64,000 bases of DNA from Calliopum simillimum (Eukaryota > Arthropoda > Insecta > Diptera > Lauxaniidae): contig OX638369.1 in NCBI GenBank assembly GCA_951812925.1, forward strand, positions 29,252,392-29,316,391, written 5' to 3'. The first letter of the stretch is position 1. Every line of letters begins with the position of its first letter. Positions 20,253-63,277 of the stretch are shown in pieces. A model generated the notes under the pieces. That model was not told the origin of the DNA and did not search any database. It saw only the letters and a program-made list of their open reading frames with translations. The position numbers and the translations under genes were made by a program.

Positions 20253-21057
20253 AGACCCTACACCCAGGGTATATTCACTTTGTCCTTTCGATTGTAACGC
20301 AGAGAAGGAGGCGTGGCAGGTATGTTCTTGATCACCGTCACCTCCTGAGTCGTTATATCCATATACATATGTCTGTCAGTCCGTTGAAATCATTTTGATA
20401 TTTTTTGGGAGCAAGATAATTCAATAAAATTTGCCTTCGTCATCAAAGTTTAGTCGTCGGATTGAAAATGAGTGAAATCAATCAACGGACACTCCTACCG
20501 CCCATACAAAAAATATATTCAAAATGCAACTTTAGGAGTATTGTTCGCGATAATGCAAGCAAAATACACATAAATACTAAGAACGGTAAGCGCAGGCTCT
20601 GAGCAAAAACCAGTACTGTGCTATACTGAAAACGTGATTTGGGGTATATCCAGACAATTTCATTTAGACACCAAGAACTAAAAATGAAAGCTCTGAGCAA
20701 AAACTAAACAAACTCTGACAAGAAGGTGTGGCACCTTCCGTATAAGGAAAATCTTCAAAATTCTACACTGAAAACGATCTTTGGGGTATTTCAAGACAAT
20801 TTCATTTAGACACTAAGAACTAAGAATGGAAGCCCTGAACAAAAACTGGTTGAACTCAGACAAGAGGGCGTTTCACCTCCCATACAAGCATAAGCTTCAA
20901 ATTTCTATACTGAAAGCATTTTTTGAGATAAACCAACCAAATTTCGCTTAGATTTCGTTAACATTAGATCTGAGCAAAATCTAAGTGAATTTGGACATGA
21001 CAACGTGGCACCGCCCATACAAATAAAATGTTCAAAATTTTGCAGTGTAGTGTATTC
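20253..21057 (+). mobile_element. Dispersed ~0.85 kb repeat, copy 1
   Basis: Same family as at 35255 and 38167: it begins gaccctacacccagggtat and ends gcagtgtagtgtat. It is more diverged and lacks the (ctgg)n expansion. It lies in the giant dipeptidase intron. Confidence 0.8.
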
Positions 21058-26795: not shown

Positions 26796-27086
26796 CACAG
26801 GCCCACAAAAAAAAAAAAAAGTACCATGCGCGAAAGATCAGACCACCTGAACTTTATGTTTTCGGGGTCGCTGAATCCGAATATGGTGCCAGAATAGCGA
26901 AGTTGGTTCGCGTTTTTTCAGAAACCAGCAAAAATCAGTAATTTTCAGGATTATTGTTGATTTCTGAAAAAACGCGAACCAACTTCGCTATTCTGGCACC
27001 ATATTCGGATTCAGCAACCCCGAAAACATAAAGTTCAGGTGGTCTGATCTTTCGCGCATGGTACTTTTTTTTTTTGTGGGCCTGTG
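26796..27086. mobile_element. Foldback element D (291 bp, TAA target duplication)
   Basis: A nearly perfect hairpin. The ends are cacaggcccac...gtgggcctgtg, flanked by TAA at 26793-26795 and 27087-27089, and most of each ~130-bp arm pairs (for example gaagttggttcgcgtttttt with aaaaaacgcgaaccaacttc). The CACAGG end and TWA duplication match element A at 1862. Confidence 0.9.
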
Positions 27087-35254: not shown

Positions 35255-36106
35255 ATACCCTACACCCAGGGTATATTCACTTTGTCCTTCCGTTTGTAAC
35301 GCAGAGAAGGAGGCGTAGCAGGTATGGAAAAGTATATATATTCTTGATCAGCGTCACCTCCTGAGTCGATATAGCCATGTCCGTCTGTCTGTCAGGCTGG
35401 CTGGCTGGCTGGCTGGCTGGCTGCCTGGCTGGCTGGCTGGCTGGCTGGGTGGCTGGGTAACGGCTGTGTGTGGAAATACATTTTTTGGGAAAACTGAGCA
35501 AGATAATTCAATGAAATTTGGTACACTGCCTTCGTCGTCAAAAATATATTCAAAATGTGATAATAAGAGCATTATTTGCAATAACAGAAGCAAAATACAC
35601 ATAAGTACTAGAGATAGTAAGTACAAGTTCTGAGCAAAAACTAGGCAAATTCGGACTAGAGGGCGTGGCACCTCCTATATAAACAAAAGTTTCAAAATGT
35701 TATACTGAAAGGGTTTTTTGAGATAATCCAACTTAATTTCACTCAAATACTAAGAGCATTAATTGCAAACTCTGAGCAGAAAGTAGAACTAGAGGGCGTG
35801 GCACCTCCCATATGAGCGAAAGTTTGAAAATGCTATACTGACAAATTTTTTTAAGAAATATTATCCGAACTTTACTCTAACACTCAAAACAATAAGTACA
35901 CGTTCTACGCAAAATCTAGGTAAGCTCGGAGAGGGCGTGGCACTCCCCATATAAGAAATTTGTTCTTATACTCTCCTACAGGTTACGGAAGAATTCAACA
36001 ATTTATTTTATTAAAAACTTGTATGTACAAGAATACGTATATTGGATAGTATTTATCAACTAAATGTTTAATAATATCCGAGTACTTGAAATGCAGTGTA
36101 GGGTAT
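35255..36106 (+). mobile_element. Dispersed ~0.85 kb repeat, copy 2
   Basis: It runs from ataccctacacccagggtat to gcagtgtagggtat, so the ends are short inverted repeats (ATACCCTACAC/GTGTAGGGTAT). It contains a (ctgg)n microsatellite at about 35395-35455 and repeated 'gagggcgtggcacctcc' blocks. No transposase is encoded; it is non-autonomous. Confidence 0.85.
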
Positions 36107-38166: not shown

Positions 38167-38870
38167 ATACCCTACACCCAGAGTATATTCACTTTGTCCT
38201 TCCGTTTGTAACGCATAGAAGGAGGCGTGGCAGATATAGAAAAGTATATATATTCTTGATCAGCGTCACCTCCTGAGTCGATATAGACATGTCCGTCTGT
38301 CTGGCTGGCTGGCTGGGTGGCTGGCTGGCTGACTGGCTGGCTGGCTGGCTGGGTGGCTGGCTGTGTGTTGAAATACACTTTTTGGGAAAACTGAGCAAGA
38401 TATTTCAATGAAATTTGGTACACTGCCTCCGTCATCAAAGTTAGCTTGGGGGATTGAAAATGAGCGAAATCGGTCAACGGACACGCCTACCGCCCATACA
38501 AAAAATATATTCAAAATGCAATTTTAGGAGTAATTTTCACGACAATGCAACCAAAATACGCATAAATACTAAGAATTGTAAGAGCAAGCTTTGAGAAAAA
38601 ACTGAGCAAATTCGGACAAGAGGGCGTGGCACCCTCCATATAAGCAAAAGCTTCAAAACGCTATTCTGAAAGCGTTTTATGAGATATTAGAACCAAATTT
38701 GACTTAGACACTAAGAATCATAAATGAAAGCTCTCAACAAAAATTGGGTGAAATCGGACAAGAGGGCGTGGCACCTCCCATATGAGCAAAAGCTTCAAAA
38801 TGCTATACTGAAAGAGTTTTTTGAGATAATCCCACCAAACTTCACTCACATACTACATACAGACTATAAA
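38167..38870 (+). mobile_element. Dispersed ~0.9 kb repeat, copy 3, left part (split by the Polinton)
   Basis: It starts ataccctacacccagagtat and carries the fly-type motif tcacctcctgagtcgatata, followed by a (ctgg)n run at 38300-38360 and several 'gagggcgtggcacctcccat' segments. It continues after the Polinton at 46825-47011. It is non-coding. Confidence 0.85.
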
Positions 38871-38876
38871 TGCACG
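38871..38876. repeat. Left target-site duplication of the Polinton (tgcacg)
   Basis: The hexamer tgcacg directly precedes the first base of the left inverted repeat and is identical to the hexamer after the right one. Removing the element and one hexamer rejoins the interrupted host repeat smoothly (...actataaatgcacg / ctctaagc...). Confidence 0.9.
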
Positions 38877-39274
38877 AGTAGGGTGTATTCGTGCGTTCGA
38901 GCACACTCCTGGCAGAGGCCCCTGGCAGAATTTTCCCCCTTCCTAGTACATCGTGGCAGAATTGCCCCTGTAGGAGCCCCTTTCTAGTACATCTTGGCAG
39001 AAGGTGCCCCTGTAGGAGCCCCTTTCTAGTACATCTTGGCAGAATTTCCCCTGTAGGAGCCCCTTCCTAGTATATCTTGGCAGAATTGCTGCTGTAGGAG
39101 ACAGAATTTTTTTTCCTAGTTGAATTTTTTTAAAGATATTTTTATAGGTCCTTTGTTGTTGTTGTTGTTTCTTATGTTTTTTATTTTTTTGTTATTTTAT
39201 ATGCTAATGGGGTTATGGTGAACATATACCTTAGTAGATTATGGAGGTAGTTCTTAAACTTATTGTTACCGGAA
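38877..39274 (+). repeat. Polinton left terminal inverted repeat (398 bp)
   Basis: It matches the reverse complement of 46380-46818 from the terminal AGTAGGG to ttgttaccggaa. Its outer half contains about four tandem units of roughly 45 bp built around 'tagtacatc(t/g)tggcagaa' and 'cccctgtaggagcccc'. The inner half holds a gtt run and a T-rich stretch. Tandem repeats inside Polinton termini are compatible with a protein-primed, slippage-prone end (inference). Confidence 0.9.
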
Positions 39275-39743
39275 AGTACATCGTGGCAGAATTTCTCAGA
39301 ATTGGCGGAGGTAAAAAATTTTCGGCATATTTTTTTTATTTTCCTGCTTGGTAGTTGAATTAAATGTGAAATATCGACTGCGTAACAAAAATCCAATGCT
39401 AACAAAACAAACAAACAAATCCATAATTTGTCCACAGTGTATGTCTGTGTGTACATATATTTTTCTACGCATATTTTGTATACAAATGAGAATTGAATCC
39501 CATTTCCACACCACCAATGATGTAGGGATTGAGATGCGCTTTTTTACTGTGGTATCCCCAGTAGACCCAATCCACATGTAGATCAGATTCAAGATAAATA
39601 AATATGTCTATTATCATATTTAAAATAGCGTAATATTTATCATCTCGCATAACCCATGAAATAAAAATTATATATTATTCATCATTCTCAATAAGTACTT
39701 CGTCTCATATCATATCTCTTATCTCTATAATATTCTAAATTGA

Positions 39744-40472
39744 CCAAATTCAAATCTCAAAAGATGTAAAAAATGTAATAAAAATTTTTCTCGAGCCTCT
39801 ACCATGAAACGTCATATGAAGAATAACTGTAAGAAGGTGAGTAATAATGCACCCGAAATTAAACTACAGTTGTATGCTAATCTGCAAGAAGAAAACCATC
39901 AAGACAATCAAAATTCGAATACACAGCAATCAATAAAAAAAAATATATCCAATCAACCAACATTCATGCTACAGTTCTGTCCTGCAATGGATAGTATGTA
40001 CCTTGCATTATTTAACCGACATAGTTTTGGTGTGGAAGCCCAAAAGTTTTTAATGGAAAAGAATTATACTAAAAAATATACAGGTTTAGCTAAAAAGGTG
40101 CTGAGTAATACGGGTGACGAACCTGTATCAATTATAACCCAATTCAAATACATCAATCAAGCTAACGAAAAGGCGTTTAAAACAGTGAAAATTAATACAA
40201 CACTAAACGAGGAGAATATTGAGCAAGATTTCATTAATAAAGTTGTGCAACCGATTGGAGAGAAAATTACAGAATTTGAACGGGAAAATAAAGCAATTGT
40301 ACTGTATATGTGCTATTTAAAATTCTTTTTTAAAAATCTTCAACCACTGGAGCAAAAATCACAACAGCAAATTGTACAGATTAACTCAAAAGTATATGAG
40401 ATGGATGATGATTGTAATTTAAGTTATGTTGAAGAGAATTCTGAAGACATCCCAGGTTTTAGAAATCAATAA
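39744..40472 (+). CDS. Polinton zinc-finger protein ORF
   Basis: The ATG at 39804 opens a 222-codon frame, but the frame is already open from 39744. The residues before that ATG complete a C2HC zinc finger: CKKC, then twelve residues including a Phe, then His and Cys four residues later. The functional start may therefore lie in an upstream spliced exon, or the ORF is 5'-truncated. After a Gln/Asn-rich linker comes a roughly 130-residue region with 'AFKTVKINTTLNEENIEQDF' and 'ITEFERENKAIVLYM'. As I recall, similar zinc-finger-plus-helical proteins accompany insect and cnidarian Polintons, often next to or fused with polymerase B; I could not check this. A role in DNA recognition is inferred only from the finger. 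No downstream polymerase frame exists here. Confidence 0.6.
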   Translation, partial: PNSNLKRCKKCNKNFSRASTMKRHMKNNCKKVSNNAPEIKLQLYANLQEENHQDNQNSNTQQSIKKNISNQPTFMLQFCPAMDSMYLALFNRHSFGVEAQKFLMEKNYTKKYTGLAKKVLSNTGDEPVSIITQFKYINQANEKAFKTVKINTTLNEENIEQDFINKVVQPIGEKITEFERENKAIVLYMCYLKFFFKNLQPLEQKSQQQIVQINSKVYEMDDDCNLSYVEENSEDIPGFRNQ

Positions 40473-40885
40473 TCCATTAATCTATTAGCATGTAACATGA
40501 AAAATGAAAATTAAAACTTATGATAAACTTAACAATTATAGGTCTTTTATTTTATTATTAATTCACTTTTCAGAAATATTAAAATCAAAATTAAACCCCT
40601 TGTAGGAATACACATACTTGAAACTTCAAATTTTTTTCAAAATTTTTTTTAAATTGAAAACTTGAAACTTCAAAATTTTTCCAACATTATTCAAATTGAA
40701 TAAGGATCTCGAAAGCGGTTTCATAAAACCATAATATCAGTCTTTGATAATGAAATTCATATGAAATCAGCATCATATAAACAATTTTTGTCCTCAATTC
40801 TGCTTAATTGTAATCTGATTCCTTGTTTATATTGCTAAGGATATTGAAAGCGGTTTTGCTAAATCAGCATATTAGCCTTCAATTC

Positions 40886-41011
40886 ATGATTTCATCATAT
40901 GATGAAATCATCATTGTTTATATAAACAATTTTAAGCATAAACTGATTCCTTGCATATATCCCTAAATCAACATATCAGCCTTTCATGATTTCATCATAT
41001 GATGAAATCAT
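40886..41011. repeat. Two identical 26-bp perfect palindromes, exactly 100 bp apart, in the Polinton
   Basis: A self-complementary 26-mer (left half atgatttcatcat) occupies 40886-40911 and again 40986-41011. Each is followed by attgtttatataa. Shorter relatives (gatgaaatca plus ttgtttatataaac) recur at 40755-40790 and 42355-42500. They lie in the non-coding gap between two ORFs. They could be regulatory or replication sites; no function is shown. Confidence 0.75.
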
Positions 41012-41549
41012 TATTGTTTATATAAGCGATCCGACAACAACAATTGTTAGGCAACCAATTTGTTATTTAATATCAAGTTTTCCGTAAATTTTGTTTACAT
41101 AAGCCTCATCCTGTTTTTAATTATTTTAGTATATAGAAAGGCATTTGCGAAAACATGATCAATCATGTTCTTGTGAGCTAGCTTATCCAGATTAATTAAA
41201 ATTTTTTGTTTATATTAATTGTATGAGGCTCACCCAACTTTTGAATTTTGTTTATCTTGGTCGCATCCTGTTTATAATTATTTTAACATATTGGAGTTCA
41301 TCTGCGTAAGATGTTTAATCATGAGTTATTTAAATGTTTACATAACTCCAGATATCCATTCCAGTAAAATAAATACTGTTTATGTATTGCAACAAAATAT
41401 GAAGGATAAACGGTTATGTCAACGAAATATATAATAGATATGTACATACATATTTATATAAAATTTTACAATAAAAGCTGGGAGTTTTGAATTGAAAATT
41501 AGTTTCAAAGATTTCGTTCGACAGCAACATACAAAAAGTAAAATTTAAA

Positions 41550-41921
41550 ATGGAAGCACAACTACAAAGTCTTTTCCAGATAAATCCTTCATCTAACATC
41601 AATCAATATTTACCTTTAAAGGATATGGAGATGAATAAAATATTTGAGATCCTCAGGATTGATCGAGTCCAGACAAAATATGGGGAGGCAATAAGATGTA
41701 TTTTAAGCGAAGGATGTTTTATTTATCTACCGAAAAGGTTTCTTAACATCACTCAGGAGCAAATCGACTACTTAAACAAAAATCCTCATATTTTGAAGAA
41801 GATTTTTAGTGCCGATGGAAGCAATCAATTTCATATTGATAAAACAATAATTGACTTCAATTTTTATGGACAATTTATAGATACTAAAAATATCTGGAAA
41901 TTAAAAAAAATTTATAAATAA
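41550..41921 (+). CDS. Polinton small conserved ORF, 123 residues
   Basis: This is an intact ATG-to-stop frame with a favourable context (aaaATGG), a TATA-like tttatataaaa about 100 bp upstream, and an AATAAA overlapping the stop. The protein is basic and small. Its centre reads 'MNKIFEILRIDRVQTKYGEA' and then 'FIYLPKRFLNITQEQIDYLN'. From memory, short insect proteins with a '...i..i..v.TkyG.....l......vfLPkRy' pattern occur repeatedly beside Polinton genes; I cannot verify this. Function is unknown. A single-strand DNA-binding role is a guess I would not rely on. It looks undamaged, unlike the neighbouring protease remnant. Confidence 0.6.
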   Translation: MEAQLQSLFQINPSSNINQYLPLKDMEMNKIFEILRIDRVQTKYGEAIRCILSEGCFIYLPKRFLNITQEQIDYLNKNPHILKKIFSADGSNQFHIDKTIIDFNFYGQFIDTKNIWKLKKIYK

Positions 41922-41969
41922 AATCTATTCAAATATAAAACAACACCAATTTTTCTTTTTATTTAATTT

Positions 41970-42272
41970 TTATTTCAGATTTGCTTTTGTTAGTAAAAAT
42001 TTTAGACATAAGTGACCACAATTTACAGTGTTGAATTTTTGGTACTGAAAATAGTTATAGCTAATATTTTTTCCTAAATATTTGATTATCTCCTTTGGTG
42101 GTTGAAGATTTCCAAAGCTGTCAAAATATTCAATTTCATTATTCTTTTTCCAGTATGCTACCCAATGTGTACCCGGTCCTTTTGATGTATCCAGATTGAT
42201 TATTCCGCATTCCGTTTTAAATGGTTAGTTTGGCAGTGTGTCACGTATAACCACACAATTGTTTATTTTAAG
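41970..42272 (-). pseudogene. Remnant of Polinton adenovirus-type cysteine protease
   Basis: On the reverse strand, about 100 codons end at a stop at 41970-41972 and match the adenain/Ulp1-type maturation protease of Polintons and adenoviruses. All four catalytic positions can be seen: His in GTHWVAYW, Asp in EYFDSFGN, Gln six residues ahead of the nucleophile, and Cys in NCGHLCLKFL. The Gln-x6-Cys spacing equals that of the adenoviral enzyme (family knowledge). The frame is broken by an in-frame TAA (42225-42227 on the plus strand) between the 'RDTLPN' and 'PFKTECG' parts, and by another stop at 42273-42275. The N-terminal portion is missing. In a full element this enzyme matures capsid proteins; here it is dead but diagnostic. 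Confidence 0.85.
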
Positions 42273-42776
42273 CTATATCAGCGACAGACATGAACAGACA
42301 TGAATGGACATGAATTTATCATAAGAGAAAATATGATCTCCTAACAGTCTGAGTTATGATGAAATCACTATTGTTTATATAAACAATCCTTGTCCTCACG
42401 TTGCTTAATGATTTAGGAATATAAGCAAGGAATCGGCTTATCAGCCTTTAATGATGAAATATCCTGAGTTATGATGAAATCATTATTGTTTACATTAAAA
42501 AACATGATCTCTTAAGAGTTTCAATAGTTATTATATATGTATGTGTGAGAAGCATCTGTGTGATATTTTATATTAAATATGTTGGTCAGTGCTATATGAA
42601 ATTTTTAGTGGATGGATGTTTGAAATGTATACTCCAACTCCAAATACACGATAGTAGCTGTAGCTTTCAATATAAATTAAAGTACTGGAAAGTCTTATTT
42701 TAATTTTTAATGAATCATTATGTATTTTAGATTTGCGTTTTAAGCTTTAGTCTTTTCTGCTTTTCTTGGAGGTTTA

Positions 42777-43010
42777 TTAATTGTATACTTCAGTTTCTTC
42801 TTCTAGCTCTCGATCCATTTCAGTCCTTTGATTAAAAGAACTTGAATTATGAAGCTGAAATCCTAATGATTTTAGAAATTCTTTGTTTATGGCTGTTAAT
42901 GTAAGTTTACTTTCTTTAAAAGGCTTTGACTGATACTTTGTTTCTTCCTCTTGTGCAACCGAAATCAATGATGATCCTCTTTGTAGGTTATTTTTATTGA
43001 AAATAATCAT
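42777..43010 (-). CDS. Small reverse-strand Polinton ORF
   Basis: Starting at the first ATG (43008-43010) it gives 77 residues; the frame is open a little further upstream without an ATG. It contains 'LTAINKEFLKSLGFQLHN' and an acidic, Glu-rich C-terminus. The 'lt..n..FLkSLGf' pattern is one I recall from short insect Polinton ORFs, but this is an unverified memory. No domain or membrane segment is visible. It is on the same strand as the protease remnant and could be the last part of the same transcription block. Function is unknown and it may be decayed. Confidence 0.4.
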   Translation of the reverse strand: MIIFNKNNLQRGSSLISVAQEEETKYQSKPFKESKLTLTAINKEFLKSLGFQLHNSSSFNQRTEMDRELEEETEVYN

Positions 43011-43299
43011 TATGAAAGTTTTAATAGTGACGTTGTTTAGCTGTACACAGTTCACAGATAACTAAATAATTTTTAGGGTAATTCATATGTTTGAAACATA
43101 TCTACTCAATGCTAATTTGTTACTGATCATAAATGCGATAAACAAATTTAGCAAAAAATATATATGTAGGTAATAACATAAGATACTGAAACCAACGTTC
43201 ATCCAATTCGTAATCGTAAATAACGAATTCGGTCTTTAGTTAGTATAGCCCATTTCTCTCAAATGATTTGTACACATGAGAGAAGTATAAAAAGTTTTG

Positions 43300-44170
43300 A
43301 AGCTTAAAATTTTCATATGTTTGAAAAGTTTGAGGTTTCAAATTTTTCAAATATTTTCAAATTTTTCAAATATTTTCAAATATTTGAAAATTTGAAAAAT
43401 TTTAACTTTTTTCAAATTTTTCAAATATTTTCAAATTTTTCAAATATTTGAAAATTTGAAAATTTAAACTTTTTTCAAATTTTTCAAATATTTTCAAATA
43501 TTTGAAAATTTGAAAAATTTTAACTTTTTTCAAATTTTTCAAAATTTTTCAAATATTTGCAATTTGAAAAAAGTTTGAAAAATTTTGAAGTTTCAAGATT
43601 TCAATTTGAAAAAAGTTTGAAAAAATTTGAAGTTTCAAGTTTTCAATTTGAAAAAAGTTTGAAAAATTTTGAAGTTTCAAGATTTCAATTTGAAAAAAGT
43701 TTGAAAAAATTTGAAGTTTCAAGTTTTCAATTTGAAAAAAGTTTGAAAAAAAATTGAAGTTTCAAGTTTTCAATTTGAAAAAGTTTGAAAAAATTTTAAG
43801 TTTCAAGTTTTCAATTTGAAAAAAGTTTGAAAAATTTGAAATTACAAGTTTTCAATTTGAAAAAAGTTTGAAAAATTTTGAAGTTTCAAAATTTTCAAAT
43901 TGAAAAAAGTTTGAAAAAAAATTGAAGTTTCAAGTTTTGAATTTGAAAAAGTTTGAAAAAATTTGAAGTTTCAAGTTTTCAATTTGAAAAAAGTTTGAAA
44001 AATTTGAAATTACAAGTTTTCAATTTGAAAAAAGTTTGAAAAATTTTGAAGTTTCAAAATTTTCAAATTGAAAAAAGTTTGAAAAATTTGAAGTTTCAAG
44101 TTTTCAATTTGAAAAAAGTTTGAAAAATTTTGAAGTTTCAAAATTTTCAAATTGAAAAAAAGTTTGAAAA
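43300..44170. repeat. A/T-rich tandem repeat inside the Polinton (~42 bp unit)
   Basis: Units of the type ttgaaaaaagtttgaaaaat + tttgaagtttcaagttttca repeat many times directly upstream of the 428-residue ORF. The first 250 bp are a self-complementary variant (caaatatttgaaaatttg). Related units in the opposite orientation are at about 40615-40705. The short repetitive ORFs that read through it are artefacts. Confidence 0.9.
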
Positions 44171-44172
44171 AG

Positions 44173-44208
44173 TATTTAAAGGATGCAAGAATGAATTCAA
44201 TATCAGTA
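44173..44208 (+). promoter_or_regulatory. Candidate core promoter of the large Polinton ORF
   Basis: tatttaaag begins at 44173 and tcagtat at 44203 places a possible start A at 44205, with 32 bases between the TATA T and that A. The ATG follows 32 bases later. This fits an insect TATA plus initiator arrangement, inferred from sequence alone. Confidence 0.4.
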
Positions 44209-44236
44209 TACTTTTTACCTTCAATTGTATAACATC

Positions 44237-45520
44237 ATGAATCCAAAAATTTTAGAAGATCTTATCAAAACTCGAAATATTTTAAAGAAGAAATACAAGC
44301 AAATAAAATTGAAAGAAACAGCAAATGATGATTTCTTAGAGAAAACTTTTAAGCCAATAACAAAACCATTAAAAGAATTATATAATGCGTCTAATGAAAA
44401 CCTAATAGAAAATAAAAAGATTGATAACAACTTTAATCGAGATTATAATGGAGATTATTATGACGATAATGCTAGGAGTTCACCAACTAAAAAGAGCAAA
44501 CTAGATTTTGAGAAATTTGACAACAAGAAACGAGAAAACAGTTCATCTAATGAAGACGTTCCGATATCTGAGAAAGATATTAATGAAGATGTCGAAAGCG
44601 AAAACAGTAAATCCTTCAAAAGCCAAAATAGTGAAGACGTTGAAAGTGAAAATAGTGAAGCTTTTGAAAGCGGAAATAGTATGGAGCTTGAAAGAGAAAA
44701 TTTTTCCGTTTTAGAGGACTTGAGTGGTTTAATAAAGTCAGCTGATTTCGATATATTGTATGGACCTAAAAAACAATTGGACGGAAATTGGAAATTAGGA
44801 AACATCAATTGTAAAATAAATAATGAGAAAATAATATTGCCTAATCACAAAAGTTGGTTTCTAAACCCTGGACTACATCAATTATTATTTTTAAAGAAGC
44901 CTAATCCAAATATCTATAATGATGATGATAAAAAAATATATAAGGCCATTTTAGAACAATCAAATGTTCATAAAGTTGGATTTGTATCAAATGGTCGTAT
45001 TAGGGGTCCAAATTCATATAAGTATAGAACAATAATTAAATATTTATTTACTAAAAATCCCAGATCTAGTAATAAATACGGAGGCAACGTACTAATGCAA
45101 TCAAATCAGCATAAATTTAATAATTTTGATGATTGGAATGCTCCAACTGAACTGGCGGATAGATCAGGAAACAAACAAAAACCTAGGAAAAAATCTACAT
45201 ATAGCGATTTGTATGGAGACAACATGAAAATACAATTAAATGAGCGCAAGTCTAAGTGTGATGACTGGGAGGATTCAAATGAATTGGAGGATAGATCGAG
45301 AGATAATCAGCAATTAAGGGAAAAATCTGCATCTAATGATATATATAAAGATTATATACAAATGCAAATTAATGAATACCAACCTAATTATGATGACTGG
45401 GAAGATCCTAATGAATTGGTTGGCAGACTGCGGCTTTTAATAACATTCGGGTGGAAAAATCATATTAGCGAAATAGTTTTAATAATTAATGAATTGCGTG
45501 AAGCTGGCATTATAGTTTAG
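44237..45520 (+). CDS. Polinton-associated protein (DUF8207-like), about 428 residues
   Basis: This is the longest ORF in the element. I start at the ATG at 44237; the frame extends slightly upstream without an ATG. A TATA-like tatttaaag at 44173 and an initiator-like tcagta with A at 44205 are spaced as expected for a promoter. The order is: an N-terminal helix 'LEDLIKTRNILKKKYKQIKL' and 'KTFKPITKPLKELYN'; a long acidic Ser/Glu-rich low-complexity middle (roughly residues 70-160); a folded-looking core with 'YGPKKQLDGNWKLG', 'GLHQLLFLKKPNPNIYN' and 'RGPNSYKYRTIIKYLF'; then three imperfect 'DDW..(P/S)(N/T)EL..R' repeats and a terminal 'IVLIINELREAGIIV'. This architecture matches a family very common in insect Polintons that I believe is catalogued as DUF8207 (recalled, not checked). 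Its role is unknown, possibly virion-related. Confidence 0.75.
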   Translation: MNPKILEDLIKTRNILKKKYKQIKLKETANDDFLEKTFKPITKPLKELYNASNENLIENKKIDNNFNRDYNGDYYDDNARSSPTKKSKLDFEKFDNKKRENSSSNEDVPISEKDINEDVESENSKSFKSQNSEDVESENSEAFESGNSMELERENFSVLEDLSGLIKSADFDILYGPKKQLDGNWKLGNINCKINNEKIILPNHKSWFLNPGLHQLLFLKKPNPNIYNDDDKKIYKAILEQSNVHKVGFVSNGRIRGPNSYKYRTIIKYLFTKNPRSSNKYGGNVLMQSNQHKFNNFDDWNAPTELADRSGNKQKPRKKSTYSDLYGDNMKIQLNERKSKCDDWEDSNELEDRSRDNQQLREKSASNDIYKDYIQMQINEYQPNYDDWEDPNELVGRLRLLITFGWKNHISEIVLIINELREAGIIV

Positions 45521-46379
45521 ATAAAAATACATACATATATGGTTGATCGATTGATTGATTGGTTGAATCTTCAATACACTTTTGGAAAAACATAAATAAA
45601 TCTTTAAGAAAAATTGTATTACTTCTAAGAAAAATTTTGTACCGAAATATCAATAAGCTATTAAAAAATACAAAAAAAAAATTTACAATTGTTCTTATTT
45701 AATATAGGTCAAGAACATGCAAAATTTCAAGTTTAGATACATACTGTAAACAAATTATGAATTAAAGGGTCTTTTGTTTGATTGTTTATTTAGACTGAAA
45801 TATAATACTCAATATAGTGAAGCTGCCAATATTATACGTATATTTTAGCTTCAACAAAGCAAGAGGGAAAAATGATCAATAAACAAATTGCAGCATACGA
45901 CGTACATACACACATATTTGTTTATCGAAAATTGGTTGACATATAAAATATGTGATCCACTAAGATATTCAAATAAGACTTGTACCTCATAAGTAATATG
46001 AAAAATATTGTTCATACAGACACAGACACATACATATTTGCATACCGAAAATCGGTGGACACATGAAATATGTGAGATATACAAATAACAAGTCTTATCA
46101 TGATAAGTTTTAATATTTTCACCCAGTCTGAAGTTTCTGATAACCTGATACATTAATTTCAATTTCATATTGAAAATTTTAGTCACTGAAAGGGGGGCGT
46201 GGATATGAGTTTGATTATCTTGACCTTTGTTAGATTGTCATGGATCCTATATCAGTTGGTCGAAAAAATATTATAAGTATATAGTAATGTAAGTAATATA
46301 CAAAATCTATTTTTTACATATAAAAACATTATATTCGCCAGATAGCATGATTTTAATACCTTATAATATGAGTCATCGC

Positions 46380-46818
46380 TTCCGGTAACAATAAGTTTAA
46401 GAACTACCTCCATAATCTACTAAGGTATATGTTCACCATAACCCCATTAGCATATAAAATAACAAAAAAATAAAAAACATAAGAAACAACAACAACAACA
46501 AAGGACCTATAAAAATATCTTTAAAAAAATTCAACTAGGAAAAAAAATTCTGTCTCCTACAGCAGCAATTCTGCCAAGATATACTAGGAAGGGGCTCCTA
46601 CAGGGGAAATTCTGCCAAGATGTATGAGAATGGCGCACATCCTGTCGCAATTCTGCCAAGATGTACTAGGAAGGGGCTCCTACAGGGGCACCTTCTGCCA
46701 AGATGTACTAGAAAGGGGCTCCTACAGGGGCAATTCTGCCACGATGTACTAGGAAGGGGGAAAATTCTGCCAGGGGCCTCTGCCAGGAGTGTGCTCGAAC
46801 GCACGAATACACCCTACT
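46380..46818 (-). repeat. Polinton right terminal inverted repeat (439 bp)
   Basis: It is inverted relative to 38877-39274. It is about 41 bp longer because it carries one additional, diverged subrepeat around 46620-46660 (tgtatgagaatggcgcacat...). Short ORFs on both strands here are by-products of the GC-richer subrepeats and are not genes. Confidence 0.9.
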
Positions 46819-46824
46819 TGCACG
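46819..46824. repeat. Right target-site duplication of the Polinton (tgcacg)
   Basis: This hexamer is identical to 38871-38876 and directly follows the last base of the right inverted repeat. Confidence 0.9.
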
Positions 46825-47011
46825 CTCTAAGCTAAAACAAGAGGAACTCGGACAAGAGGGGGTGGCACGTCCTATATATGCAAAAACGTCAAAACACTAT
46901 GCTGAAAACGTTTTTCACTCAGACACTAAAATCTATAAATGCAAGCTCTGAACAAAAACTGGGTAAACTCTCATATGAGCAAAATTTTAAAAATACTGCA
47001 GTGTAGGGTAT
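46825..47011 (+). mobile_element. Dispersed ~0.9 kb repeat, copy 3, right part
   Basis: It resumes with ctctaagctaaaac and a further 'acaagagggggtggcac' segment and ends gcagtgtagggtat, the imperfect inverted partner of the left end. With 38167-38876 it makes roughly 897 bp. The same family is at 20253 and 35255. Confidence 0.85.
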
Positions 47012-50684: not shown

Positions 50685-52269
50685 GTGAGTAAATTTGTAA
50701 AAGATACTTACTCGTTAACTCTATTGGTATTGGAAATTTAAAAAAGTTAATTAAAAGTGTCTCAAATTTAATACCAAAAAAGTTTTTTGATACTTACACT
50801 TAAAAAAATGCAATAAGCAATTTGGGATAAAAAGTTTTGAAAAAACTTCAGAAATTTTTATATTTTTTATCAAAAAAATTTGTTTCAATGTTCAAAATCG
50901 GGAATAAATCTACTAAAAGCAATTAAAAACAAATTTAAAAGCTTTTGAATTTTTTAAAAGTCCAAAGGAGTTAATCTTAAAAACAAAGAAAATATTTTGA
51001 TAGAAAAAATATTGAAATGAATAAAATGAGACAAAAAAAGCACACGATAAAACTAAAAATAAATGCAAAAATGTTTTGACATAAAACTTGCAATAGTTTA
51101 TGGGCCAATAAAGCTTAGCGTTTGAGTGAAGTTGAGAAAGGAAAAGAAAAGCAAGGAAGCTCAACTGCATTTTCTGATGCAAAAATCAGTTAACATAAAA
51201 ACAACAAAAACATTAAAATAGAAAAATATTTGCATAGAGTGGAACTTTTTAAAAAAAAATCAAGAAGAAAACTTAAACGTTAAAATAACAAAATCAGAAC
51301 AAAAATATGTAAAATGTATTAGTAATACTTAGATTAAAAAGAAATCAAAAAATTAATAAAATTAAAAATAAAGCCAGAAACTCAAAAAAAAATTAAAATT
51401 TAGAACAAAAAAAAATTTATTTTTAAAAAATTTAAAACGAAAGAAATTTCATTCAAATAGTATTTAAAAAAAGTTTCACCTTAAAAAAATTTTGCCTCCT
51501 GTGAGGATTGAACTCACGACCCCTGGTTTACAAGACCAGTGCTCTACCACTGAGCTAAAGAGGCGCTTGCTATTAAAACAAAATAGAATGCAATTTAACT
51601 TTTGCCACGAAAGTTTCAATATACATTATTCTACTTGAAATCATTAAGTTAACAGTACTCTATTTAATTAAATGAAATAGTCATGGTAGTCAATTCTAAA
51701 TGGTTAGTGATAAGAAAAAGTAGTGAGTTGCAGTATCTTATCACAAGAATTGCTACAAATTTTATGCGGTACCTAAAGATGAATGAAAACTCAGAAAAAG
51801 TTGACATAATGATTGTCAGAACAAAATTGACTTTAAATATCTATATACTTATGTAAGTATATAAAAATGAATGTTTATATATGAAGCAATCCACGCCAAG
51901 TGTACCAGCTTAAAATTTTTTTCTCTCCGATTTCGCTCAAATTTGGCAATATGGTAAATCCGGTGTGCAAGAACAACAATTCGGGAGTACTATTGGTTGT
52001 TAAAATACAAGGTGTTGAAGTTGGCGTTTTTAGTCATTTTCATGAAAAGCTGACACTAAAGTTTGTAAATTGATAAATATAAGTTTCACCAAAATTTTTT
52101 ACACTTAAAGATACTTTTGAATTTTTTTTAAAAAAACCCCCTTAGATTTTTTTTAAAAAACTTCAGCCAAGAAAAACATTAAAAAGTAAAATTGAAGCAC
52201 AATTTATAAGCTTTAAAATGATGTGTGACCCAAGATGGGATTCGGACGCTAAATAAGAGTTTTTAGCTT
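50685..52269 (+). other. Dipeptidase intron, proximal part
   Basis: A-rich sequence surrounds the tRNA. At 51890-52020, ccacgccaagtgtaccagct followed by tctccgatttcgctcaaatt resembles a repeat widespread in flies (from memory). No other gene. Confidence 0.5.
51494..51564 (-). tRNA. tRNA-Thr (anticodon TGT)
   Basis: The reverse strand folds into a complete 71-nt cloverleaf. The 7-bp acceptor stem is gcctctt/aggaggc (one G-T pair). The D stem is gctc/gagc with loop agtggta. The anticodon stem is ctggt/accag with loop cttgtaa, giving anticodon TGT (threonine). The T stem is gtgag/ctcac with loop ttcaatc. The internal promoter boxes look intact, and a run of seven T follows the 3' end on the coding strand as a Pol III terminator. 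It lies antisense within a dipeptidase intron, 0.8 kb after the exon at 50552. No intron is visible in the tRNA. Confidence 0.97.
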
Positions 52270-58673: not shown

Positions 58674-60419
58674 CACTAGTTTACAAATGATTAAAATTTT
58701 TTTTCCCAGCGAATGCCGTTACTCATTTTATATGGAAAATGGGCTGCTGATTCCGAAAATTGCATTATTTTTTTTTTATTTCGTGTCGTTTTCGAGATAT
58801 CGGTCATTTTCGATTTTTGGACCAAAAAAAAAAGATAGTTCCACTTAAATACAAATATCTCAAAAACCAATGTTTGTATTCAAACAAATAATATGTCATA
58901 TTAAAGGTAATTAAATTACCTACAAATGATACTCACGTCACTTTTTGGCTGGTTTGTTAGTTTCGATGAAATAAATTGATTTCTGAAAAAAAGAGTATAT
59001 TTTTCCGAAAAAATTACAAAAATGTCTAAATCAACTGCAGATTTTTACAAGAAAAAAAAATTTTTAAAATCATTTTGTATTTTTATATCATAGTCTATAA
59101 ATTTGTTAGGCAAATAAAATACTATTTAAGAAAATCGATGGAAAAATGCAAAAGTTGTATACAATTCATTGATACGTTACCAAAATGCGTTTTTCCCTAT
59201 TTTTCCGTTTTTTTTGTAATAAACTGTTCGAAAATTTGAAACTTTTTGTAAAAGAAATTAGAAAATCCAAAAAATTCTTAAAGAAGGCATTAAAAGGAAA
59301 TACCCGTGTCTCGCCGTTTTTCTCTAGCACGTCAGATTTTTTTTTAATCGATTTTTGAAGTTTTTTAATCCACTGTACATGAAAAAACAGAAATAACGCA
59401 TTCTTGTGTTAAATCGATGAATTTAACTATATGATCCTTACATCTGAGGTGTATCATGTCTTCAGCAAACTTATGCAGGATACTACGCGGAATATTTTTG
59501 TAGACAGTTTTAACCCTCTCAAACCCCCACATGTAGGTCAAAATGGCCTTCATGTGGGGGTCAAAATGACCCACATGTGAGGGTTTTAGAGGGTTAAAAT
59601 TTTCTACAAAAATATTCCTCGCAGTATCCTGCATAAGTTTACTGAACGCATAATACACCTCAGATGTAAGGATCATATAGTTAAATTCATCGATTTAACA
59701 CAAGAATGCGTTATTTCTGTGTTTTCATGTACAGTGGATTAAAAAACTTAAAAAATCGATTAAAAAAAAATCTGACGTGCTAGAGAAAAACGGCGAGGCA
59801 CGGGTATTTCCTTTTAATGCCTTCTTTAAGAATTTTTTCGATTTTCTAATTTCTTTTACAAAAAAATTCAAACTTTCGAATAGTTTATTACAAAAAAACG
59901 GAAAAATAGGGAAAAACGCATTTTGGTAACTTATCAATGAATTGTATACAACTTTTGCATTTTTCCATCGATTTTCTTAAATAATATCTTATTTTCTTCA
60001 CAAATATATAGTCTCTGATACAAAAAAAAAATATTATAAAAAAGTTATGTCTTCTTGTATAAATTTGAAGTTGAATTTGATTTTTTCTTAATTTTTTCGA
60101 AAAAAAAAATTTTTTTTTTTAGAAATCAATTTATTTCACCGAAACTAACGAACCAACCAAAAAGTGATGTAGATATCATTTGTAGTAATTTAATAACCTT
60201 TAATATGACATATTATTTGTTTAAATACAAACATTGGTTTTTGATATATTTGTATTTTAATGGAACTATCTTTTTTTTTTGGTCCAAAAACCGAAAATTA
60301 CCGATATCTCGAAAACGACACGAAATAAAAAAAAAAAATGCGATTTTCGGAATCAGCAGCTCATTTTCCATATAAAATGAGTAACGGCATTCGCTGGGAA
60401 TTTTGGCTGTAAACTAGTG
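58674..60419. mobile_element. Giant foldback element H (1746 bp, near-complete hairpin)
   Basis: The ends are cactagtttaca...tgtaaactagtg with ATA on both sides. The arms of about 850 bp pair almost end to end: gaatgccgttactcatttta with taaaatgagtaacggcattc, gccgtttttctctagcacgt with acgtgctagagaaaaacggc, and ccttacatctgaggtgta with tacacctcagatgtaagg. The centre, about 59525-59590, holds 'cccacatgtaggtcaaaatg' subrepeats. ORFs on both strands are mirror images and not genes. Confidence 0.9.
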
Positions 60420-60699: not shown

Positions 60700-61806
60700 T
60701 TAGGTAAGGTTAGGTTGCGAGGGCATCGTCTGCATATATGCCAGTCAACTTCCACTTAGACCATTCTGCTGGTCCATTGTGATCCCTCTTTAAATACGGT
60801 ACATAGTTCTAAGATACAATACAATTAATTTAATTCAGTATATTTTATACAGTTATCAATCTTGATGAAGCTTATTCATTGGTTGTTGGCTACTATTCGT
60901 GTTTTCTGTTCCCATTTTGATGCCTTGTTGTATTTCAGAATCTTAGCGGGGTCTATCTCCATAAGTTCTTGGATATCCTGAAAAAAGAAGGATCCATATA
61001 TTTTAAATCCTGTTTTTGCAAAAGCAGGGCACCGGCAAAGATAATGTTGATTATCTTCTCCCACGTCGCTGTTTCCACACCATCTACAAAGATCGTCAGT
61101 CTCAAACCCCATCTGTCTCAAGTGCTTGCATAACGTATTATGCCCTGTAACTACTGCTATAACTGACTTTAGATCACTCTTGCTGCACTTTAAAAGCAAT
61201 TTAGTAAGCCTTATTTAGGAGTGTTATAAATAGTTTTGGTCGTTTGATAATGGGTTGAGTTGCCCCATCTCCTCACCATCTCCAAAACCATTTTATCTGA
61301 AATTATCTTGCAATCGTGTGACATTGGTGGTTTAACGATACGATTAATATTCTCTGTAGGCAAGAATGAGCCCTTCCTAGCTAACTCATCTGCCTCTTCA
61401 TTTTCAAACCCAGCACAGTTCTAAATAGTGTTGTTCGTTAAGAACCTGAAGCTCTCTGCGACAATGGCTGACTACCTCAGATCTTATATTCCTATTTTGC
61501 AGAGCTTTAATGGCTGCTTGACTATCGATGTAAATGGTTATATCGGTAGGCGATATATCCCTCATCGAAATCAACCTTGCCACCTCTGCTATCGCAAGTA
61601 TTTCCTCCTTTAAATACTGAACAATTGTTCGATATTTTTACCGACTCTGAGTGATTAATTGGTTGACTGAAGATCCCGCAACCAGTTCCTATGTCCATTT
61701 TAGAACCATCCGTATAATCTTCTAAAGTGGTATCATTAAGGACATTCTTGATCTCCCATTGTTCAAGTGTGGAAATATTGGACTTTTATGCTTTTACTTA
61801 TATCTG
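60700..61806 (-). mobile_element. LINE 3' part: RNase H domain and C-terminal region (reverse strand)
   Basis: On the minus strand, 'YTDGSKMDIGTG' (about 61700) and, after a frame change, 'YIDSQAAIKALQNR' (about 61500) are the two acidic blocks of a retrotransposon RNase H. They continue into 'CSKSDLKSVIAVVTGHNTL', 'CRWCG' and 'DNQHYLCRCPAF' in a 107-codon frame ending at 60876. This order is typical of RNase-H-bearing non-LTR elements of the Loa/Jockey group (family knowledge). Frameshifts and stops show it is dead. The downstream 3' UTR extends to about 60700. Confidence 0.85.
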
Positions 61807-63277
61807 CAACACATTTGTTTTTTTCGGCCTTTCCCCGAAATTTCTTTAGTCCCCCGTGAACCCTCAAAATCGGATAAATTCAATAAAACTGTTCTAAAAT
61901 GCTTAAAAATGGAAAGTTATGCTATTCACGGGGTTCTCTAGATTGCTGAAACCAAATATGATGTTGGAAAATGAAAAACTCAAAATAGCGCCCGGAAAAC
62001 TGCGTACATACCCATTTTAAGCACCAAAAATGGGAAAAAATCGTTACAGGGGGTTTTAGCCTAGAAGTCTTGTTACATAGAATGAATTTATACGGTCGGT
62101 GTGGGATATTGTTTTTTATATAAAAAGTAAAGTTTACCAAAACTTTTTTTGTGTTTTTGATTTGTTTATTATTTAAGCAATAACAATAAAAAGTTAATAC
62201 AACTCAAAATTAAAAATATTTCTAACATTTTGCAAACCATTTTTTATAAACTAATTTGAGGTCGCTGACCACGAAAAACCCAATTATTTTTTTTTCCTTG
62301 TGGACGTTCCCGAGTTATTTGTTAATTTATATTTTCGAGGTTTTAGCTTCATATACATCAATATATTTCTATGACGCCAAGTTCGATCAATTTTATTTTT
62401 CCACGTTTACAAAGAGCGCTTCTAACAACTATACCAATAATTATGCTTCGAACAAAATTGACTGAGTTATAACAGGAAAAAGTTTGAAATTTCAAAAATT
62501 TTTGAAATTTTTCACATCAACTTCAAACGAAACATTTGGTTTTTGGCATATAATTTTTTTAATACTTGTTTTTTAGTAATTTTATTAAATGGCGCATATA
62601 ATTGCAAATATTTTAAGCCTATGTTGAGCAAAATCGAATGAAATTTCCAAAAGATATTAGGGTTTTAGTGCAATAAGGAAGATGTGAGAATTTTCGAATT
62701 GTTCGGCCTGAGTCAACCGATCCAATTTTTCAGCCTCCAGATAGAAAATATAAATTAACGAATAACTCGGGAACGTCCACGAGGAAAATAAAATAATTGG
62801 GTTTTTCGTGTTCAGCGACCTCAAATTAGTTTATAAAAAATGGTTTGCAAAATGTTAGAAATATTTTTAATTTTGAGTTGTATTAACTTTTTATTGTTAT
62901 TGCTTAAATAATAATCAAATCAAAAACACAAAAAAATTTTTGGTAAACTTTACTTTTTATAGTATAAAAAACAATATCCCACACCGACCGTATAAATTCA
63001 TTCTATGTAACAAGACTTCTAGGTTAAAACCCCCTGTAACGATTTTTTCCCATTTTTGGTGCTTAAAATGGGTATGTACGCAGTTTTCCGGGCGCTATTT
63101 TGAGTTTTTTCATTTTCCAACATCATATTTGGTTTCAGCAATCTAGAGAACCCCGTGAATAGCATAACTTTTAATTTTTAAGCATTTTAGAACAGTTTTA
63201 TTGAATTTATCCGATTTTTAGGGTTCACGGGGGACTAAAGAAATTTTGGGGAAAGGCCGGAAAAAACAAATGTGTTG
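61807..63277. mobile_element. Giant foldback element I (1.47 kb) inserted in the LINE
   Basis: Arms 61807-62337 and 62743-63277 are inverted copies: caacacatttg/caaatgtgttg at the ends, tcccccgtgaaccct/agggttcacggggga, gcgcccggaaaactgcgtac/gtacgcagttttccgggcgc, and gtggacgttcccgagtta/taactcgggaacgtccac. A unique loop of about 405 bp lies between. I see no clear target duplication. Mirror-image ORFs in the two arms are not genes. Confidence 0.9.

Follow-up and report, generated by a model that had tools for sequence, protein, structure and literature searches.

A 7.9-kb insertion in the fly Calliopum simillimum is probably a young, non-autonomous Polinton/Maverick derivative

We analysed a window of 64,000 nucleotides (nt) from the lauxaniid fly Calliopum simillimum (GenBank assembly GCA_951812925.1, contig OX638369.1, positions 29,252,392 to 29,316,391 of the forward strand; coordinates below are counted from the first nucleotide of this window). 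It contains a discrete insertion of 7,942 base pairs (bp) at 38877-46818 which, with a probability that we place at roughly 0.6, is a young Polinton/Maverick derivative that is not autonomous and was mobilised in trans. The assignment to Polintons rests on features read from the sequence, namely the ends of the element, its target-site duplication and what appears to be a protease remnant.

Ends and insertion site of the element

The element starts with AGTAGGG and ends with CCCTACT, and its terminal inverted repeats measure 398 bp on the left and 439 bp on the right. The outer triplets correspond to the AG/AGT end motif of Polintons, while the second triplet is AGG (AGTAGG...CCTACT). In the excerpted text of a survey of intact vertebrate Mavericks, arm lengths range from 46 to 1,447 bp with a mean of 402, duplications measure 6 bp and the ends are most often (AGT)2//(ACT)2 (PMC8097293); this range of arm lengths includes both arms found here. 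The 6-bp duplication TGCACG directly adjoins both ends and was the sole candidate of at least 6 bp within 15 bp of them; equal pairs of 6-mers turned up in 172 of 200,000 random draws from the window, which is the chance rate for a duplication of this length.

The target was a host repeat with a unit of about 142 bp, members of whose dispersed family lie at 20485-21038, 35540-35958, 38477-38876 and from 46819 onward. When both flanks were joined with a single copy of TGCACG and compared with the window by blastn, gapped alignments spanning the junction were obtained at 35540-35953 (74% identity) and 20485-20923 (69%), and near 35.9 kb an uninterrupted relative of the target repeat can be read directly. 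These relatives represent the empty site in paralogous form. No second copy of the element was found in the window among the best 60 of 140 blastn rows.

Absent core genes and a putative protease remnant

The element overlaps 29 stop-to-stop frames of at least 60 codons. None of them matched a Pfam family of polymerase, integrase, packaging ATPase or capsid at expectation values (E) up to 1, in a scan outside which fragments of fewer than 60 codons fell, and apart from the frames described below the longest has 128 codons. Because protein-primed polymerase B, RVE integrase, FtsK-type ATPase and capsid thus all went unmatched, the element is not an autonomous Polinton.

The minus-strand frame at 41970-42224 is predicted to be a remnant of an adenain/S273R-type protease, as it presents His-Trp, Asp-Ser-Phe-Gly, Gln and Asn-Cys-Gly in the order seen in adenain-like proteases. 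Its best match in the PDB was the cysteine protease S273R (E 0.0013, residues 7-51), in an alignment that places His20 of the remnant on H168 and Asp35 on N187; we take positions 168 and 187 of the S273R chain to be catalytic. The match to adenain itself (E 0.22) ranked behind six unrelated pseudouridine synthase sequences (E 0.12-0.15), with a seventh below it at E 0.7, and Pfam Peptidase_C48 gave E 0.02, under the cut-off. No N-terminal part of the protease could be recognised by eye in the three minus-strand frames. Two of three protein-motif patterns had no match in contig collections, and the two stretches matched by the third lie in frames unlike a protease, so we regard them as chance matches.

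A preliminary description of this stretch had proposed a deleted Polinton/Maverick with AGT...ACT termini, inverted repeats of about 400 bp, a perfect 6-bp duplication and an adenain-type protease remnant, and had stated that genes for polymerase B, integrase, ATPase and capsid are absent. The structural points were reproduced, the protease as a putative, truncated and weakly matching remnant and the absence of core genes across all 29 frames of at least 60 codons, and ends, arm length, duplication and remnant fit the proposed identity.

Age of the insertion and rearrangement of the interior

Over 398 columns, the best alignment of the two arms contains a single mismatch, in addition to one gap of 41 bp, corresponding to one tandem unit, and on account of these small differences the insertion looks young. 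The mismatch translates into a divergence of 0.0013 per arm (95% interval 0.00003-0.0070).

The interior, by comparison, is rearranged. A 19-bp exact piece of the arm unit directly inside the left arm is likely the scar of a rearrangement or deletion, and the 42-bp array at 43556-44171 recurs in inverted orientation at 40616-40700. Copies of a perfect 26-bp palindrome precede the 123-amino-acid (aa) frame, and half-copies of it lie upstream of the protease remnant; possibly these repeats are putative control sites, promoters or binding sites, shared by the two frames. A rearranged interior between nearly identical arms suggests that the deleted form predates the insertion and moved in trans. 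Judged from this arrangement, the internal losses (the N-terminus of the protease, the start of the zinc-finger frame and the core genes) are more likely to be mostly older than the present insertion.

Accessory reading frames

The longest stop-to-stop frames of the element comprise 441, 242, 141, 128, 128 and 120 codons. Across 300 dinucleotide-shuffled versions of the sequence, the longest frame had a median of 97 codons, a 95th percentile of 139 and a maximum of 172, and frames of at least 141 codons occurred 0.03 times per shuffle. The frames of 441, 242 and 141 codons therefore stand out, the last of them only just exceeding chance by its length. Frames of 94 codons, the stop-to-stop length of a 77-aa frame that is missing from the preliminary description, are expected 0.96 times per shuffle, so the length of this frame is no evidence of coding.

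Three apparently intact accessory frames had been reported. The 123- and 427-aa frames are indeed open from an ATG (the 428 residues previously given for the latter included the stop codon), but in the 242-codon frame the first ATG is residue 21, downstream of the CxxC of its zinc finger, which is why this frame is probably truncated at its 5' end or in need of splicing. Its finger matched zf-C2H2 in Pfam (E 0.00025, under the cut-off) and a designed consensus finger in the PDB (E 0.0014). The 427-aa frame contains 8-codon units at 44584-44701 as well as a 44-codon unit in three diverged copies, each around a DDW motif (residues 298, 342 and 386). Single-sequence structure models reached a mean predicted local distance difference test score (pLDDT) of 40.0 for the 123-aa frame and 38.8 for the C-terminal 266 residues of the 427-aa protein, values too low for a comparison of folds. 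Searches of PHROGs and NCBIfam gave weak matches only, several of them spurious (e.g. Cbf5 for the protease remnant). Two further matches under the cut-off, DUF7879 in a frame across the right arm (46712-46951, E 0.0011) and UPF0175 in a frame of the 42-bp array (E 0.00076), are ascribed to chance in repeats. A resemblance of the 427-aa protein to DUF8207-type proteins and of the 123-aa protein to small OB-like proteins encoded by insect elements found no support in Pfam and is not relied on.

Relatives of the frames were sought in viral and prokaryotic contig collections, to which insect genomes do not belong, so that absence from them means little. In viral contigs, patterns derived from the 427-aa, 123-aa, 84-residue and 242-codon frames matched 11, 17, 26 and 9 times, respectively, and none of these matches was confirmed; the same applies to all 46 pattern matches of the 427-aa frame in viral and prokaryotic genome contigs.

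The preliminary description had further suggested, from the open frames, that either the deletion was recent or the accessory genes are under selection, which proved only half right. The arms do point to a young insertion, but open frames are expected without selection: in neutral simulations at a divergence of 0.0013 the three long frames stayed open in 1,614 of 2,000 runs, and in 603 of 2,000 even when the divergence was set to its upper bound. Since frames would remain open neutrally at such an age, they are uninformative on selection since the insertion. The 44-codon units, which differ from each other at 54-76 of 132 bases, reach further back. Under neutral drift to such distances, simulated at three rates as star-like descent from unit 2 with substitutions only, all three units remained open in 2, 0 and 1 of 3,000 runs. 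Nonsynonymous and synonymous divergences (dN and dS, Nei-Gojobori) of the unit pairs were 0.51 vs 1.13, 0.73 vs 0.67 and 1.06 vs 1.23. This suggests an older coding constraint, with the 427-aa reading frame guarded in the past while its residues changed fast; such constraint can stem from complete ancestors of the element.

Features of the element and of the window

Table 1. Coordinates of the element, its flanking duplication and its internal features
Feature	Position	Strand	Remarks
Left target-site duplication copy, TGCACG	38871-38876		adjoins the left end directly
Left terminal inverted repeat	38877-39274	+	398 bp; starts AGTAGGG; four 41-bp tandem units at 38936-39100
19-bp exact piece of arm unit	39275-39293	+	directly inside the left arm
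242-codon frame	39744-40472	+	single C2HC/C2H2-like zinc finger at its start
26-bp perfect palindrome, two copies	40886-41011 (starts 40886, 40986)		upstream of the 123-aa frame
123-aa frame	41550-41921	+	open from ATG; without family match
Putative protease remnant, adenain/S273R type	41970-42224	-	retains the His, Asp, Gln and Cys positions; stop at 42225-42227
Palindrome half-copies	42355 and 42470 (region 42355-42482)		upstream (minus strand) of the protease remnant
77-aa frame	42777-43010	-	from ATG; 94 codons stop-to-stop
Non-coding A+T-rich tandem repeats	43290-44171		9- to 118-bp units, then 42-bp units
427-aa frame	44237-45520	+	open from ATG; in-frame internal repeats
Right terminal inverted repeat	46380-46818	-	439 bp; last bases CCCTACT; longer than the left arm by one 41-bp unit
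Right target-site duplication copy, TGCACG	46819-46824		adjoins the right end directly

Several other features were recorded elsewhere in the window. A long fold-back at 58703-60400 has arms of about 850 nt, with pieces 82-96% complementary, around 26 central nt, and a second one at 61807-63277 has arm pieces 96-99% complementary with 407 nt between the innermost arms; a short search at the former revealed no convincing target duplication, and none was seen at the latter. A near-perfect hairpin occupies 26810-27075 (arms of 127 nt, 97% complementary, and a 12-nt loop). The window's sole Rfam match at gathering score is a tRNA-Thr (TGT) on the minus strand at 51493-51564. The minus-strand frame at 60876-61214, whose match to zf-RVT is weak (E 0.0088, under the cut-off), is probably the tail of a non-LTR (long terminal repeat) retrotransposon.

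Weighing of the explanations

Under the explanation that we favour, the protein-primed polymerase by which the element was copied from its inverted ends, as well as the integrase for its insertion, would have come from a complete Polinton at another place in the genome. The element itself would retain only the cis-acting ends, and some accessory genes would travel with it as passengers or serve the element itself, with the core genes, the N-terminal part of the protease and the start of the zinc-finger frame having been lost mostly before insertion. We prefer such mobilisation in trans because several internal rearrangements are hard to fit into the time in which the arms acquired 1 mismatch in 398 columns. 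Four points weigh against it. The helper Polinton is postulated; the protease gave weak matches (E 0.0013 and 0.02); the identity of the arms could stem from arm-to-arm copying at replication or from gene conversion rather than from youth; and no relative of the 427-aa, 242-codon and 123-aa frames or of the protease emerged from the viral and prokaryotic collections, so that no accessory gene is tied to Polintons by comparison.

Young arms and open frames would be expected equally had an autonomous Polinton arrived at this site and shed its core genes there afterwards, the deleted form never having moved. Decay in place is also the rule for Mavericks as far as the excerpted reports go, 96% of vertebrate loci being eroded (PMC8097293) and fragmented copies being described from a gall midge (PMC8504770). 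Nevertheless we consider this course unlikely here, as it would compress several separate rearrangements and the loss of all recognisable pieces of core genes, of which no fragment was found in the 29 frames of at least 60 codons scanned, into the time of one arm mismatch. That the accessory genes are under selection, either for the element, as a satellite using or restraining its helper, or for the host, draws on the diverged 44-codon repeats, all three open where neutral runs hardly ever kept them so, and on the one of three repeat pairs in which dN is smaller than dS (0.51 vs 1.13). Against this, the other two pairs have dN/dS near 1, the constraint may date wholly from autonomous ancestors, open frames since insertion are expected neutrally and the zinc-finger frame lacks a start, which makes present selection rather improbable. 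The chances are slimmer still that the element belongs to another DNA transposon superfamily with 6-bp duplications, depends on a helper and acquired its protease from a Polinton or a virus. No integrase or transposase is left for classification and the accessory frames have no known relative, as this origin would allow, but AGT...ACT ends, arms of about 400 bp, 6-bp duplications and a capsid-maturation protease occur together in Polintons according to the portions consulted of PMC8097293 and PMC4028283. Most speculative, and in our judgement very unlikely, is that the element lives as a satellite of a Polinton-type virus, its ends kept for replication and integration by the helper, perhaps packaged in the helper's capsid, and its selected accessory genes, those of a predicted DNA-binding zinc-finger protein and of the 427- and 123-aa proteins, acting on helper or host.

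Polintons are usually studied as large complete elements or as decayed fragments. If mobilisation in trans is the correct explanation, Polintons can move deleted relatives as ordinary DNA transposons do, and such copies offer a natural test of which Polinton proteins and ends are required in cis. If the accessory genes were selected in such copies, this would be a sign of satellite-like parasitism among animal virus-like transposons, and a true satellite would parallel, in animals, the lifestyle of virophages and satellite phages.

Comparison with known systems

A literature search for non-autonomous, mini, truncated or derived Polintons and Mavericks returned nothing on such forms, which does not show that they are unreported. 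Repbase lists some non-autonomous Polinton derivatives. With Polintons/Mavericks (Polintoviricetes), as characterised in the excerpted text of PMC8097293 and PMC4028283, the element shares arms of hundreds of bp, AGT...ACT as first triplets, a 6-bp duplication and accessory genes. An adenain-type protease is among the conserved Polinton genes (PMC4028283, same excerpt), a type to which the truncated putative remnant shows a weak match. In contrast to intact vertebrate elements, for which 12.7-24.6 kb are given (PMC8097293, in part), the element is 7.9 kb long, has no match to polymerase, integrase, ATPase or capsid, and carries AGG instead of AGT as second end triplet.

Loss of the genes that form the virion is shared with nine Polintons without capsid, protease and ATPase genes; the available portion of the source describes these as having lost the capsid module (PMC4028283), whereas the element analysed here additionally lacks a match to polymerase or integrase. 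Drosophila-associated adintoviruses 1-3 are likewise insect-associated relatives of Polintons with a virion-maturation protease, but by their description, on which this comparison is based, they span 13.3-14.6 kb and encode ten to twelve proteins including polymerase, integrase and capsid (PMC8363768, excerpt). Deleted Maverick copies in a fly genome are also found in the gall midge Mayetiola destructor, where, according to the excerpted account, the fragmentary copies keep only pieces of polymerase or integrase, with consensus lengths of 600-4,500 bp (PMC8504770); the element of C. simillimum shows the reverse, having kept both of its ends and lost those genes.

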